From an uncultured marine group I thaumarchaeote (lineage in GTDB: Archaea > Thermoproteota > Nitrososphaeria > Nitrososphaerales > Nitrosopumilaceae), in contig CABXGK010000004.1 of the NCBI GenBank assembly GCA_902511735.1, positions 1 through 43,550 on the forward strand: a stretch of DNA of 43,550 bases, read 5' to 3'. Positions within the stretch are counted from its first letter, which is position 1. The number at the start of each line of letters is the position of its first letter. Positions 1-5,300 of this stretch are shown in pieces. Made by a program: the position numbers and the translations under genes. Under the pieces are notes generated by a model. The model made no database searches. It saw only the letters and a program-made list of their open reading frames with translations, and had not been told where the DNA came from.

Positions 1-390
1 TGACAGGTGGATATGAACAATTTTCCAAGTAGGTTTTTTTATTAAAACAAATGTTGCTCTTCCTTCAATTGTAATATGTTGACCTGTATACTTTTGAGTA
101 TCTACTAACATTCCTTTTTGAATTAACTCTAAAGCTACTATTGCAGTTTCGCCAAATATACTTATTTTAAGATTATTTATTTTATAATCATAATCTGAAA
201 TACTGACAAATCTTAATTCTTCTAATGCAATTGTTGTAGCAAAATCTTTTAGATCATATGGAGGTACATCGCTAAAACTTGAAAAAGTTGAATCATTAAA
301 CTGAATATCTTTTAATTTTTCTAATTTTTTTGATTTCCCAATCTCAAAAAATGATTCTACAATTTTTATAATTTCTTCTTGTTCGGGCAT
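1..390 (-). CDS. NTF2/SnoaL-like domain protein, 3' end cut by the window
   Basis: The minus strand is open from ATG at 390 to the window edge (130 codons, no stop). The protein begins MPEQEEIIKIVESFFEIGKS, a helix typical of SnoaL/NTF2-like folds, and its last visible residues (TWKIVHIHLS) match the terminal strand of that fold, so little is missing. NTF2-like proteins are cone-shaped folds used as small enzymes or binding modules; the role of this one cannot be read. An in-frame ATG lies at 399, but the TATA-like CTATAAAG (422 to 415 on this strand) places transcription start near 392, which favours a leaderless start at 390. It is divergent from the ilv operon. Confidence 0.7.
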   Translation of the reverse strand, partial: MPEQEEIIKIVESFFEIGKSKKLEKLKDIQFNDSTFSSFSDVPPYDLKDFATTIALEELRFVSISDYDYKINNLKISIFGETAIVALELIQKGMLVDTQKYTGQHITIEGRATFVLIKKPTWKIVHIHLS

Positions 391-414
391 GTATGTCATT
401 TCTCAAAAAGGAAT

Positions 415-422
415 CTTTATAG
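415..422. promoter_or_regulatory. TATA-like box, probably shared by two divergent genes
   Basis: The 8-mer CTTTATAG reads as TTTATA on the plus strand and as TATAAA on the minus strand. Taking about 26 nt from TATA centre to start, it predicts minus-strand initiation near 392 (ATG at 390) and plus-strand initiation near 445 (TTG of the ilv leader ORF at 448). No other good TATA box lies at the right distance from ilvB ATG 545, so ilvB mRNA should carry a leader of about 100 nt. Confidence 0.5.
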
Positions 423-447
423 GTGCACCTCCCGTTTTTAGTTTACA

Positions 448-510
448 TTGCAAGAACAAGCAACAATTAGCACTTTTGGTATCTCTTTGCTAGTTGACCT
501 GCTGCTGTAA
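448..510 (+). CDS. Putative branched-chain leader peptide upstream of ilvB (20 codons)
   Basis: A short ORF runs from TTG at 448 to TAA at 508-510. It encodes 20 residues and ends ISLLVDLLL; eight of the last fourteen residues are Ile, Leu or Val. The last three sense codons are all CTG, whereas the first Leu codons of ilvB are CTA, TTG, CTT and TTA. This composition is what ilv/leu attenuator leader peptides show in bacteria. The predicted transcription start (about 445) is next to the TTG, so the ORF may be leaderless. There is no ATG, and translation is unproven. The role as a sensor of charged Leu/Ile/Val tRNA is inferred from position and composition only. Confidence 0.45.
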   Translation: MQEQATISTFGISLLVDLLL

Positions 511-526
511 ATTAAATCCAATTTAC
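464..526 (+). promoter_or_regulatory. Two hairpins in the ilvB leader, attenuator-like
   Basis: CAATTAGC (464-471) can pair with GCTAGTTG (489-496) through eight pairs including one G-U, across a 17-nt loop inside the leader ORF. GTAAATT (507-513) and AATTTAC (520-526) form a perfect 7-bp stem with a 6-nt loop that begins at the last base of the final CTG codon and includes the stop codon; ACGTTTT follows. A ribosome paused on the CTG run (499-507) would cover the 3' arm of the first stem and the 5' arm of the second. Whether this controls termination or ilvB translation is inference. Confidence 0.4.
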
Positions 527-544
527 ACGTTTTAAATTAGGATT

Positions 545-2254
545 ATGAGTGATAATAATAAAATGAATGAAACTATGATCGGCGCAACTGCGCTAATGAA
601 AGCATTGGAAAAAGAAGGAGTAAAGGAAGTCTTCGGTCTACCGGGAGGTGCGAACCTTCCAATGTATGATGAATTTGGGAAAAGTAACATTCGTCATATC
701 TTAGTAAGACATGAACAATCTGCTGCACATATGGCAGATGGTTTTGGTAGAGTTAGCAGAAAACCTGGTGTATGTTTTGCAACTTCTGGTCCTGGTGCGA
801 CAAATTTGTTAACTGGAATTGCAACTGCTCAGGCAGATTCTGCACCAATGGTTGCAGTTACTGGACAAGTACCTGTTGCAATGATTGGAAAAGATGCATT
901 TCAAGAAAGTGATATAATTGGAATGGCAAATCCTGCATTGAAATATTCATACCAACCTAGAACTCCTGAAGAAATTCCAACAATGGTTAAACAAGGATTC
1001 TATATTGCTGAAACTGGCAGACCTGGTCCTGTATTATTAGATATTCCAAAAGATGTTCAACAAAATGAAGGTAATATCCCATTTCCTGATGAAGTTAGAG
1101 TTCCTGGATATCATCCATGGACTGATCCTGACATACAAAACACTATGCGCGCCGCAGAAATGTTGTTGTCTGCACAAAAACCAATTATTCTTGCTGGAGG
1201 TGGCGTAATAATTTCATCTGCATTTGCAGAATTACAATCAATAGCTGAATTATTAATGATTCCTGTAGTAACCACCTTCAAAGGTAAGGGTGCATTTCCT
1301 GAAAACCATCCTTTATCATTAGGGCCAATTGGAATGCACGGACATGCTGAAGCCAATAAATTGATGACTGAAGCTGATTGTGTATTAGCAATTGGTACAA
1401 GATTTTCAGACCGTTCTGTAGGAACATTTGAAGAATTTGAAAAGAACTTGAAAATTATACACATGGATGTTGATCCTGCAGAGATTGGAAAGAATCAAAC
1501 AACTTCTGTAGCTGTAGTTGGCGATGTTCGTACATCTTTGAGAATATTAGGGAAAATATTGATGGATAAAGCAGTCAGAGCTTCTGATGATAATCCTTGG
1601 TTAAAACATGTTAAAGAAACAAAACAGTATTGGCGTGAAAATTTAAAAATACATCCAGGAGAAATGGGTGCTGCAAAAATTCTCAGAAAATTAAGAGAGG
1701 TACTTCCAAAAGAATCTATAGTTACAACTGAAGTAGGCCAACATCAAATGTGGGCATCATTATTTTTTGATGCAATACATCCTGGAACTTTCTTTAGTTC
1801 TACTGGTCTAGGAACTATGGGATGGGGATTCCCTGCTGCAATCGGTGCAAAAGCTGCACGTCCTAATGTACCTGTAGTTGACATTGCAGGTGATGGTAGT
1901 TTTAACATGACCGAAAACTCACTTGCAACTTCTGTTTTAGAAGGTTTACCTGTAATTGTTTTCTTAATCAACAACTATACTTTGGGAATGGTTGCACAAT
2001 GGCAAAGAACCTTCTATGACCGTCGAATGGTCGGTGTTGATCTTAAGAAATGTCCTGATTATGTTAAATTAGCTGAATCATATGGCGCACAAGGAATTCG
2101 TGCACAATCAATGGATGAACTTGAAAAGGCAATCAAAGATGGATTAAACAGTGACGTAGCTACTGTAATTGATATCCCAATTGATCCTGAAGAAGATGTT
2201 TTACCATTTGTTGCACCAGGAACTGGATTAAAGGATATGATATTACCTTCATAG
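545..2254 (+). CDS. ilvB: Acetolactate synthase, large (catalytic) subunit
   Basis: This ThDP-dependent enzyme condenses pyruvate with pyruvate or 2-ketobutyrate, the first common step of Val/Leu/Ile synthesis. At 569 aa it has the usual full length. The N-terminal PYR domain has VFGLPGGANLPMYDEF and the HEQSAAHMADGFGR motif, with catalytic Glu57. A central FAD/ThDP-enzyme domain follows, and the C-terminal PP domain carries the ThDP motif beginning GDGS at about residue 449 and ending with LINN. ilvN starts 9 nt after the stop, so the two subunits are co-transcribed, and the leuA and leuB genes follow. The leader peptide and hairpins upstream suggest control by branched-chain amino-acid supply. 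Confidence 0.96.
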   Translation: MSDNNKMNETMIGATALMKALEKEGVKEVFGLPGGANLPMYDEFGKSNIRHILVRHEQSAAHMADGFGRVSRKPGVCFATSGPGATNLLTGIATAQADSAPMVAVTGQVPVAMIGKDAFQESDIIGMANPALKYSYQPRTPEEIPTMVKQGFYIAETGRPGPVLLDIPKDVQQNEGNIPFPDEVRVPGYHPWTDPDIQNTMRAAEMLLSAQKPIILAGGGVIISSAFAELQSIAELLMIPVVTTFKGKGAFPENHPLSLGPIGMHGHAEANKLMTEADCVLAIGTRFSDRSVGTFEEFEKNLKIIHMDVDPAEIGKNQTTSVAVVGDVRTSLRILGKILMDKAVRASDDNPWLKHVKETKQYWRENLKIHPGEMGAAKILRKLREVLPKESIVTTEVGQHQMWASLFFDAIHPGTFFSSTGLGTMGWGFPAAIGAKAARPNVPVVDIAGDGSFNMTENSLATSVLEGLPVIVFLINNYTLGMVAQWQRTFYDRRMVGVDLKKCPDYVKLAESYGAQGIRAQSMDELEKAIKDGLNSDVATVIDIPIDPEEDVLPFVAPGTGLKDMILPS

Positions 2255-2263
2255 TGATGCAAA

Positions 2264-2755
2264 ATGGTTTGGGCAATTTTATCAATCAAAGTGGAAAATA
2301 AACCTGGAATATTGTTTAAGGTTACACATCTTTTTAGATCACGTAATTTTAACATCGATAGTATTTCTGTAGGTGTCACTGAAGACAAAAAATATTCTAG
2401 AATGACAATCACCACCATTGGAGATGAGAAACAAATAGTCCAAATTGTCAAACAACTTGACAAAATGATTGACACAATTGAGGTTCGTAGGTTAGATGTC
2501 AATAATTCAGTATATAGAGAGTTGGTAATGTTTAAGATTAAAGTTAGTAAACCAGAAGATAGCATGGAGATTAACAAATTAGCTAGTGCATATTCTGCTA
2601 CAACACATGATGCAAAAAAAGAATCTATCATGGTGGAGATGACTGCCACGCCTCATCAAATATCTGCCTTTGAAGAATTGGCAAAGAAGTTTGGTATCAA
2701 AGAAATGGCAAGAACCGGAATTACTGCATTGGAGCGTGAAGAACATGAACATTAG
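2264..2755 (+). CDS. ilvN: Acetolactate synthase, small (regulatory) subunit
   Basis: A protein of 163 aa, the normal length for the regulatory subunit that stimulates IlvB and mediates feedback inhibition by valine. Residues 1-75 form an ACT domain (AILSIKVENKPGILFKVTHL, then NFNIDSISVG), followed by the usual C-terminal IlvN domain with FKIKV and ITALERE. The gene lies 9 nt downstream of ilvB. Its last 11 nt overlap the start of leuA, which suggests translational coupling. ilvC and ilvD are not in the window. Confidence 0.94.
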   Translation: MVWAILSIKVENKPGILFKVTHLFRSRNFNIDSISVGVTEDKKYSRMTITTIGDEKQIVQIVKQLDKMIDTIEVRRLDVNNSVYRELVMFKIKVSKPEDSMEINKLASAYSATTHDAKKESIMVEMTATPHQISAFEELAKKFGIKEMARTGITALEREEHEH

Positions 2756-4259
2756 AATTTTTGATACAACTTTACGTGATGGTGAACAATCTCCTGGTGT
2801 TTCATTGTCTCCAGAAAAAAAATTAAACATTGCAAAAAAACTTGATGAATTAGGTGTTGATGCAATTGAAACTGGTTTTCCTGTTATATCTGACGGAGAA
2901 AAAGAGGGTGTAAAATTAATTGTTGGGGAAGGACTTAATGCAGAATTATGTGGATTAGCAAGAACTAATAAAAAAGATATTGATGCTGCAGTAGACTGTG
3001 GATTAAACTACATCCACACTTTCATTGCAACATCTGACATTCATTTAGAACATAAATTAAAAATGTCTCGTGATGAAGCTTTAGAAAAAGCAATTGAGGC
3101 TGTTGAATATGGAAAATCACGTGGATTACAAGTGGAGTTCTCTGCTGAAGATGCAACCAGAACTGATAGAGAATTCTTGAAAAAAGTTTTTGGTGCTGTT
3201 GCTAGTGCAGGTGCTGACAGAATCGATATTCCTGATACTGTGGGTTATTCTACTCCTCAATACATTGGTGAAATCACAAAAGATGCAATCGAGATATCAA
3301 AATTACCAATTAGTGTACATTGTCATAATGACTTTGGTTTAGCTGTTGCAAATGCAATTTCTGGTGTACAAGCAGGTGCATCATGTGCACATGTCACAAT
3401 TAATGGAATTGGTGAACGTGCAGGAAATGCATCCTTGGAAGAGTTTGTTATGGCATTACACAGTTTAGAATTTGAAAGTAAATGGGAAACTAACATAAAT
3501 ACAAAATTAATCTATGAAACTTCTAGATACATCTCAAAATTAGCAGGCATGTCTGTACAACCAAACAAAGCAATTGTTGGTGAAAATGCATTTGGTCATG
3601 AATCCGGAATACACACTCATGGTGTATTGAATAATCCTTTAACATACGAGCCTATTAGCCCTGAAATTGTAGGCAGAACTCGTTGGTTACAGGTAGGAAA
3701 ACATGCTGGAATTCATGGTATGAATGCAATGCTCAAAGAATATGGTGTTGAGCCTAACGACAAACAAACAAAACAGATTTTAGAAAAAGTAAAAGCATTA
3801 GGTGATCAAGGTAAACAAGTTACTGAAGTTGAATTGTTATCCATGGCCAATGAAGTAATTGGTGAAAATAAATTAAAACGAATTGTACAATTAACAGGAT
3901 TTTCTGTATCCACTGGAGTAGGAATCATGCCTTATGCATTTGTAAAATTAAATGTAGATGGTCAAGAATTTACAGCAACTGATTATGGTGTAGGTCCTGT
4001 AGATGCTGCATTAAATGCAATTCAGAAAATTACAATTAAAATTGCCGATGAAGTTAGATTAAAAGAATACAAATTAGATTCTATTTCTGGTGGTGCTAAT
4101 GCATTATGTGAAGTTACTGTAAAAGTTGAAGATGCACGTGGTAATATTATTTCATCAAAATCTGTTGGTGAAGATATTGTTACAACAAGCGTTCAAGCAA
4201 TGGTTGATGGAATTAATCGTATCATGTTGAAAAATCTCCTAAAAGAGAAGAAGATTTAA
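2745..4259 (+). CDS. leuA: 2-isopropylmalate synthase (LeuA family)
   Basis: Condenses acetyl-CoA with 2-ketoisovalerate, the committed step of leucine synthesis. I chose ATG 2745, inside the end of ilvN, because the protein then starts MNIRIFDTTLRDGEQSPG, the canonical family N-terminus; the in-frame extension back to 2670 is only ilvN read in another frame. It has 504 aa: an HMGL-like TIM barrel with FDTTLRDGEQ and the metal ligands in HCHNDFGL (His192, His194), GERAGNASLEE, and a C-terminal LeuA allosteric domain (about 370-500) with DYGVGPVDAALNAI. The homocitrate and citramalate synthases are close relatives; the flanking ilvBN and leuB favour isopropylmalate synthase. Confidence 0.9.
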   Translation: MNIRIFDTTLRDGEQSPGVSLSPEKKLNIAKKLDELGVDAIETGFPVISDGEKEGVKLIVGEGLNAELCGLARTNKKDIDAAVDCGLNYIHTFIATSDIHLEHKLKMSRDEALEKAIEAVEYGKSRGLQVEFSAEDATRTDREFLKKVFGAVASAGADRIDIPDTVGYSTPQYIGEITKDAIEISKLPISVHCHNDFGLAVANAISGVQAGASCAHVTINGIGERAGNASLEEFVMALHSLEFESKWETNINTKLIYETSRYISKLAGMSVQPNKAIVGENAFGHESGIHTHGVLNNPLTYEPISPEIVGRTRWLQVGKHAGIHGMNAMLKEYGVEPNDKQTKQILEKVKALGDQGKQVTEVELLSMANEVIGENKLKRIVQLTGFSVSTGVGIMPYAFVKLNVDGQEFTATDYGVGPVDAALNAIQKITIKIADEVRLKEYKLDSISGGANALCEVTVKVEDARGNIISSKSVGEDIVTTSVQAMVDGINRIMLKNLLKEKKI

Positions 4260-4286
4260 TCATTACAAAATTTTAGGTGATTGTGT

Positions 4287-5300
4287 ATGTATAATATTTC
4301 GTTAATTACTGGTGATGGAATCGGTCCTGAATTATCTGAATCTGTAACAACAATTTTAGATACAATTCATGATAAATTAAATGTAAAATTTGATGTTAAA
4401 CCTCTTGTAGCTGGAGATGCTGCACTTGAAAAAAGCGGTAAAGCATTACCTGATGATGTTTTTGAATCAATCAAAACATCTGATGCATGTTTGAAAGCTC
4501 CTGTTGGAGAAAGTGCTAAAGATGTGATTGTTGCATTAAGACAAAAATTAGATCTTTATGCAAACATTCGCCCTGCAAAATCATACCCAAATACTCCTGC
4601 ATTAAGAGATGATATTGATTTGGTGATTGTCAGAGAAAATACTGAAGACCTATACACTGGTCAAGAATTTCAAGTGGATGACACTGCAGTTGCTTTAAGA
4701 ATAATTAGTGAAAAAGCTTCAAAAAGAATTGCAAAACACGCATTTGAAACTGCAATGACTAGAAATCAAGAAAAAAAGGTCACATGTGTTCATAAATCAA
4801 ACGTCATGAAAATGACTGATGGGTTATTTTCTCGTGCCTGTGAAGATGTCTCAAAAGAGTATCCTGATGTTAAATTTGATCAAATGTATGTAGATGCATG
4901 TGCTATGAACTTAATTCGCTCTCCTCATGAATTTGATGTAATTGTAACCACAAACTTGTTTGGAGATATCTTATCTGATGAATCATCACAGGTAGTTGGT
5001 GGATTAGGTATGGCACCAGCTGCAAATTTAGGTGATAATTTTGGTTTATTTGAACCAGTTCACGGTGCGGCATTTGATATCGCCGGAAAACAAATTGCAA
5101 ATCCTTCGTCATTTATCTTATCTACAAAAATGATGCTTGATTGGTTAGGTTCAAAAAATAACGATTCTGCTTGTATTTCTGCTGGAACAAAACTTGAAAC
5201 AATAGTCTTGGATTTAATAAAATCGGGCATTACCACTAAAGATATCGGTGGAGAAAAATCCACGCAAGAATTTACCAAAGAAATTACTAGTAGATTATAG
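4287..5300 (+). CDS. leuB: 3-isopropylmalate dehydrogenase (isocitrate/isopropylmalate family)
   Basis: Oxidatively decarboxylates 3-isopropylmalate to 2-ketoisocaproate with NAD+. The start is ATG 4287, preceded by GGTGA at 4276-4280, a good Shine-Dalgarno match; an upstream TTG at 4281 is less likely. The 337 aa show ITGDGIGPEL, the LDLYANIRPAKSYPN substrate loop, VRENTEDLYTG, the metal-binding NLFGDILSDESSQVVGGLGM region and EPVHGAAFDIAGK with the cofactor loop. IPMDH, isocitrate and homoisocitrate dehydrogenases share this fold; the assignment to leucine synthesis rests on the position directly after leuA. leuC and leuD are not in the window. Confidence 0.85.
   Translation: MYNISLITGDGIGPELSESVTTILDTIHDKLNVKFDVKPLVAGDAALEKSGKALPDDVFESIKTSDACLKAPVGESAKDVIVALRQKLDLYANIRPAKSYPNTPALRDDIDLVIVRENTEDLYTGQEFQVDDTAVALRIISEKASKRIAKHAFETAMTRNQEKKVTCVHKSNVMKMTDGLFSRACEDVSKEYPDVKFDQMYVDACAMNLIRSPHEFDVIVTTNLFGDILSDESSQVVGGLGMAPAANLGDNFGLFEPVHGAAFDIAGKQIANPSSFILSTKMMLDWLGSKNNDSACISAGTKLETIVLDLIKSGITTKDIGGEKSTQEFTKEITSRL

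Follow-up and report, generated by a model that had tools for sequence, protein, structure and literature searches.

A candidate leucine-sensing leader-peptide attenuator before ilvB in ammonia-oxidizing archaea

The ilvB locus and its leader

The window (the whole stretch of DNA analysed, 43,550 nucleotides) belongs to a genome of an uncultured marine group I thaumarchaeote that is 57% complete, and it carries the consecutive gene row ilvB-ilvN-leuA-leuB, which we infer to be a single operon. A marine group I thaumarchaeote record is 97% identical to the window ilvB, and a Ca. Nitrosopelagicus record 94%. The leuB-type gene had TIGR02088 as its top NCBIfam match, with 393.9 bits, below the cut-off of 409.8. 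The features of the locus are as follows.

416..421, + strand: TATA-like box TTTATA, from which the leader message may be transcribed (candidate promoter P1; transcription start inferred at about 443-447)
448..510, + strand: leader ORF (uORF) of 20 codons with a TTG start, LQEQATISTFGISLLVDLLL-stop
464..496, + strand: hairpin H1 inside the ORF, arms 464-472 and 488-496 (9 bp), from sequence and minimum free energy (MFE) fold
487..507, + strand: candidate control codons TTG CTA GTT GAC CTG CTG CTG (Leu Leu Val Asp Leu Leu Leu), from the CTG excess in leader ORFs
507..526, + strand: hairpin H2 over the stop codon, arms 507-513 and 520-526 (7 bp), from sequence, with a T4 run after it at 530-533
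531..539, + strand: TTTAAATTA, the second TATA-like box, 32 nt before ATG 563; as candidate promoter P2 it could give ilvB a leaderless message
545..2254, + strand: ilvB, acetolactate synthase large subunit, start probably 563 (TIGR00118 above cut-off)
2264..2755, + strand: ilvN, acetolactate synthase small subunit (TIGR00119 above cut-off)
2745..4259, + strand: leuA-type 2-isopropylmalate synthase (NF002085 and TIGR02090 above cut-off)
4281..5300, + strand: leuB-type isopropylmalate/isohomocitrate dehydrogenase (PF00180 above cut-off)

ATG 563 is likely to be the start of ilvB rather than 545, because no ATG is found at the 545 position in the relatives G052 and G081. Given this start and a transcription start inferred near 445, the leader is about 118 nt long, which corrects the length of about 100 nt stated in an initial annotation made from sequence alone. 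The TATA-like box 32 nt before ATG 563 (window 531-563) also suggests 563 as the ilvB start, and perhaps a leaderless message as well.

The initial annotation had described an ORF of 20 codons with a TTG start at 448-510 and had pointed out that its three consecutive CTG codons were unlike the usage of ilvB. Both statements held, and CTG accounts for 0 of the 42 Leu codons in the window ilvB. The TTG start had been listed as a weakness; ATG occupies the same site in the relatives G076, G075, G081, G064 and G055. As to the view that most messages of this genome are leaderless, TATA-like hexamers in G052 peak 27-31 nt before ATG, in agreement with many messages being leaderless. A 27-base second match to the leader elsewhere in the same genome (C39) lies in different surrounding DNA without a similar leader and was treated as chance.

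Conservation of the leader ORF and its peptide pattern

Of 250 genomes from the family of the window, 222 contained ilvB; the analysis covered the DNA upstream of the gene in 150 of these, chosen so as to represent all 22 genera. A leader was scored by a fixed rule, in which the stop codon lies 4-75 nt before the site homologous to residue 1 of the window ilvB and the ORF has 12-23 codons from ATG, or else 17-22 from TTG, with an L/I/V-rich end. Orthologous leaders lacking or frameshifting the ORF had been named in advance as a refutation; 130 of the 150 retained the ORF together with its Leu/Ile/Val run, while 20 sets of dinucleotide shuffles gave a mean of 8.15 per 150 and a maximum of 14. 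At a score of 7 or more, the difference was 106 family leaders against 0.6 in the shuffles. The ORFs were 13-20 codons long and occurred in 17 genera. Applied to the gene starts of G052, the rule was met at 13 of 368, ilvB itself included, and before other genes it was met at about the shuffle rate (ilvD 2/26, ilvC 2/26, trpE 1/29, hisG 1/28; 6/109 in total). This comparison shows that the ORF is positioned before ilvB and not before the four other genes tested. Two of the 20 leaders missed by the rule (G245 and G153) have the ORF by eye, and the remaining ones, which fall in g3, g7, g8, g12, g22 and part of g14, look by eye like loss of the whole leader. G087 was counted as ORF-positive with the less typical MINPVAASSILLLEVLY.

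Twenty leaders were inspected from families of the order other than that of the window, and L/I/V-rich ORFs were recognized by eye in 15 of them; the TTG start of L246 was read directly in the sequence. A clear hairpin after the stop codon (stop-region z < -1.6) was present in eight of these 15 (L228, L229, L237, L238, L242, L243, L245 and L246), and the other seven lack such a fold, three of them being f8 leaders of different look (L234-L236). No leader ORF was seen by eye in two f2 leaders, L227, L233 and L244. Among 20 leaders from other orders of the phylum, one of which was cut to 104 bases, two (G500 and G392) showed by eye an L/I/V-rich ORF followed by a hairpin. The ORFs listed before ilvB in G382 and G438 were rejected, as they seem to be part of the upstream gene. 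At six loci (of 80) of Methanomethylicota and Methanosarcina-type archaea, no convincing leader was found by eye.

Other upstream elements were noted during this survey. A short hairpin-like element, GAGGG...CCTC or similar, precedes ilvB in L403, L405, L406, L408 and L414 of the other orders; it sometimes lies inside a tiny ORF, e.g. MRDGTLQV, and is possibly another leader type. In 14 of 29 genomes (L252-L254, L257-L259, L262-L265, L268, L269, L271 and L273), the 300 nt preceding the trpE domain contain a conserved GGTACCGTAC..ATACCGTAA element, perhaps an operator or a control site of the neighbouring gene.

The peptides encoded by the 145 leaders (130 from the family and 15 from other families) end in a Leu/Ile/Val run, typically LLLVDLxL-stop or LLVELVL. 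The start codon was ATG in 133 and the last codon Leu in 131 of the 145. Over 24 groups of these leaders, the L/I/V fraction of the last nine codons was 0.75 in frame against 0.21 and 0.11 off frame, with the caveat that the ORFs had been selected on that same feature. Several synonymous Leu codons are in use at the fixed Leu positions. Among them CTG is strongly overrepresented, accounting in 30 leader ORFs for 71 of 151 Leu codons and in the adjoining ilvB genes for only 2 of 1264; part of this excess may come from a stem containing CTGTAA. In the relative G052, CTG forms 4.1% of Leu codons in 369 genes, and CTG CTG CTG was found in 0 of 483 long open frames. The tRNA reading CTG was not identified, the five tRNA genes in 400 kb of G052 including none for Leu.

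The peptide was also compared at the level of substitutions, the Ka/Ks check that had been proposed for it. The pN/pS of the leader peptide was 0.78 over 37 pairs, so that residue conservation is weak and the check is not decisive. For codons with a single difference, pN/pS was 0.68 in frame, with 0.94 in the N-terminal part and 0.54 in the last nine codons, and 0.54 (+1 frame) and 1.4 in the two other frames. Since the +1 frame scores the same as the last nine codons in frame, pN/pS alone cannot prove coding. The comparison shows that the peptide is kept as a composition and a C-terminal pattern more than residue by residue, its translation being unproven. A Shine-Dalgarno-like AGGAGG was observed at codons 3-5 of leader ORFs in g6, g10, part of g15, g18 and g19 (L074, L075, L077, L086 and L087).

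RNA stems, T runs and candidate promoter boxes

The sequence contains both hairpins that had been proposed in the window, at 464-496 and 507-526. Of the two, only H1 appears in the MFE fold of 441-545, where the H2 bases pair otherwise; the energy of this fold does not stand out (z = -1.56; 12 of 200 shuffles did as well). The H2 of the window itself is weak. A stem at or after the stop codon is usual in the relatives, with base pairs differing from those of the window. The group mean of the folding z was negative in 24 of 24 groups for the whole leader (mean -1.77) and in 22 of 24 for the stop region (mean -1.52). The covariance model R1, trained on other genera only (g15, g18, g19 and g10), matched the window at 445-537 (E = 2.6e-7). 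In total, R1 matched 11 and R2 42 of 151 genomes, 7 of the 11 and 17 of the 42 being outside the training sets, with one match per matching genome and all 53 directly before ilvB; the two models are narrow and missed many leaders that carry the ORF. A search of 10 leaders against Rfam release 15 gave no family at the gathering score, and the only match in window 300-700 was rli45, whose 16.9 bits fall far below its gathering score of 60.

The stems were examined in three alignments, of which A1 (28 leaders of g15, g18, g19 and g10, 20-codon ORFs only) and A2 (13 leaders of g16) consist of distinct sequences only. The H1 counterpart was formed in 92.5% and 93.1% of cells, respectively, and H1 together with the local stem over the stop codon in 94%. 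In the third alignment, A3, the first codons of the ORF pair with bases after the stop codon as a long-range stem that encloses a hairpin. A3 holds 42 leaders (10 of g11, 31 of g14 and 1 of g5) from the 51 distinct leaders listed for the long-range-stem group; nine (g4, g9, g17, two of g5, and G087) were omitted for having the stem elsewhere or a divergent look, and the covariation holds for the 42. Double-change cells numbered 41 against 17.9 expected (sd 3.5; 0/500 shuffles), the covariation score was 0.339 against 0.250 (0/500), and 11 of 13 pairs showed a double change against 8.3 expected (25/500). Pairing was 81.3% against 28.7-47.0% when the partners were slid. Further pair types in A3 showed no excess (24 vs 23.0), the shuffles leave relatedness in place, and the stems were named after inspecting the same sequences. 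Compensatory changes, which had been suggested as a check on both stems, were thus found in one large group (A3) and were absent in A1 and A2, in whose stems there is little variation. H1 and H2 do not exclude each other, and no shared antiterminator helix was seen in the group folds, which form H1 and H2 or the long-range stem, in a search that was not exhaustive.

Runs of four or more T after the stop codon occurred at 0.69 against 0.18 in mononucleotide shuffles and start 11-22 nt from it, and runs of five or more were found in just 17% against 5.5%. The modest T-tract that had been named as a weakness stands as one, since runs of four are short though enriched in the family, and several deep families have no U run after the hairpin. 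When a ribosome was modelled on the Leu run, pairing of the 3′ arm decreased from 0.77 to 0.40, and to 0.20 with the ribosome at the stop codon (group means). The predicted openness of the ilvB start was unaffected by ribosome position on average (0.49, 0.49 and 0.47). In g19, g20, f3, f6, f7 and f14, the 3′ arm stays paired (0.76-1.0) during the modelled stall. The effect of the mask arises partly by construction, and a single stall position was tried. The excess of T4 runs and the stall model together make us lean to a transcriptional output, though these runs are short and are absent in several deep families.

The candidate promoters were assigned by spacing and conservation because a matrix has little power in an AT-rich genome; a matrix from free EM failed and an anchored one had little power. 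In the window, the distance is 32 nt both from the 531 box to ATG 563 and from TTTATA 416 to the leader ORF. All 17 ORF-bearing genera have a P1-type box 26-39 nt before the leader ORF in one or more of their leaders, though not in every one, and its matrix score alone is weak. A P2-like box 24-41 nt (mostly 32-33) before the ilvB ATG was found in most leaders of g1, g2, g4, g5, g9, g11, g13, g14 and g17. In a first set of 110, 15 leaders were at that time scored as ORF-less (G087 among them); such a box also lies 27-38 nt before ilvB in 13 of these, and by eye it resembles the box upstream of ilvD. It is possible, by inference from these sequences, that P2 yields a basal leaderless ilvB message. 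Genera g6, g10, g15, g16, g18, g19, g20 and g21 showed no P2 box, and in these eight genera a GGAG/GGTG-like, Shine-Dalgarno-like site precedes ilvB by eye. An AT-rich inverted repeat overlaps the second box, possibly as an operator or a weak hairpin; it reads AATTTA...TAAATT at window 520-538 and AATTTTAA-CACA-TTAAAATT in several genera.

Proposed mechanism, rival explanations and known attenuators

Comparison shows the ORF with its Leu/Ile/Val run and rare codons, the stems and the place before ilvB. We consider, with moderate confidence, that they are best read as a ribosome-mediated attenuator that senses leucine (plus Val/Ile) and controls ilvB-ilvN-leuA-leuB, probably at the level of transcription; translation, stalling, termination and the direction of the response are inferred, as there are no expression data. 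In the proposed mechanism, transcription would begin at P1, only a few bases ahead of the 13-20 codon ORF, and because it starts so near the ORF, the first ribosome would load behind RNA polymerase. When charged Leu-tRNA is plentiful, the ribosome would complete the ORF and depart at the stop codon, and the stem at or just after the stop would then form beside the short U run and halt the polymerase. This stem would be the local H2 or, in Nitrosopumilus-like groups, the long-range stem between the first ORF codons and bases after the stop. When Leu-tRNA is scarce, above all for the rare CTG codons, the ribosome would stall on the Leu run and cover a stem arm, so that transcription reads into ilvB. 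The second box may supply a basal leaderless ilvB message.

Several points count against this attenuator: the short T runs, the lack of a visible antiterminator helix, the weak residue conservation, the six groups in which the stall model fails to free the arm, the TTG start and weak H2 of the window, the 20 misses among 150 and the possible bypass by P2. The closest alternative keeps the same leader peptide and sensing and places the output in translation, where stalling alters folding or ribosome hand-over without a terminator. This remains possible; several deep families have strong post-stop hairpins and a purine-rich Shine-Dalgarno-like stretch before ilvB without a U run, and in the P2-less genera (g6, g10, g15, g16, g18-g21) ilvB seems to depend on the leader message. 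Against it, the predicted openness of the ilvB start is constant across ribosome positions on average and T runs are enriched in the family.

The other explanations appear very unlikely. If the leader were a structured RNA element, i.e. a ligand or protein binding site with an incidental ORF, the covarying stems and the weakly conserved residues would be accounted for, but the start, the stop, the frame-specific L/I/V run and the rare CTG recur across groups whose stems differ, and Rfam gave no family at gathering score in 10 leaders and only a far sub-threshold match in window 300-700. It is also hard to see the ORF as a small protein acting in trans: it recurs, with ATG in 133 of 145, but it has only 13-20 codons in the family, its N-terminal part is near neutral and all matches of the covariance models are in cis to ilvB. 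A predominantly leaderless ilvB message from P2, with the leader as a minor transcript or relic, is suggested by the P2-like box, which precedes the ilvB ATG (mostly by 32-33 nt) whether or not a leader has the ORF, and which resembles the ilvD upstream box; this explanation is very improbable too, as it leaves the retention of ORF and stems unexplained and eight ORF-bearing genera have no P2 box.

With respect to the attenuator, the observation made in the initial annotation was confirmed and is stronger than a single sequence could show, and its interpretation was supported, with translation, a working archaeal terminator and the leucine response unproven. A bolder reading, which we hold to be rather more probable than improbable, is that archaea have true leader-peptide attenuation. 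On this reading, leucine sensing before ilvB would occur in most sampled genera of the window's family and several other families of the order, would probably be ancestral to the order, would operate via archaeal transcription-translation coupling and may have counterparts in the families of G500 and G392. The archaeal polymerase is eukaryote-like and its termination is less well understood, and attenuation of archaeal amino-acid operons is an open question in the literature searched. Ammonia-oxidizing archaea are abundant in the ocean and in soils. A conserved case among them makes the question testable in cultured species, and the leader provides a natural probe of archaeal transcription-translation coupling.

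Leader-peptide attenuation is a textbook bacterial mechanism. The open-access literature searched, which excluded subscription papers and preprints, contained no described amino-acid attenuator in archaea, and the earlier remark that archaeal leader-peptide attenuation is not well documented held for amino-acid operons within that scope. One paper remarks in passing that uORF attenuation occurs in archaea, and Ribo-seq of Methanosarcina mazei placed 10% of unannotated small ORFs in 5′ UTRs as potential uORFs (PMC11456600). Rfam includes leader RNAs of amino-acid operons, and the archaeal leader matched no family of release 15 at gathering score. The bacterial comparator is the ilvBNC leader-peptide attenuator of Corynebacterium (PMC11857589, PMC10272879). 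The ilv and leu leaders of E. coli belong to the same class of bacterial attenuators. In common with bacterial ilv/leu attenuators, the archaeal leader has a short ORF with a Leu/Ile/Val run before an acetolactate synthase operon, rare Leu codons and stems overlapping the end of the ORF. Unlike them, it has a short U run and no antiterminator helix that could be seen, its ORF lies almost at the inferred 5′ end, its stem sits on or right after the stop codon or, in one group, encloses the ORF as a long-range stem, and in many genera a second TATA-like box stands before ilvB.
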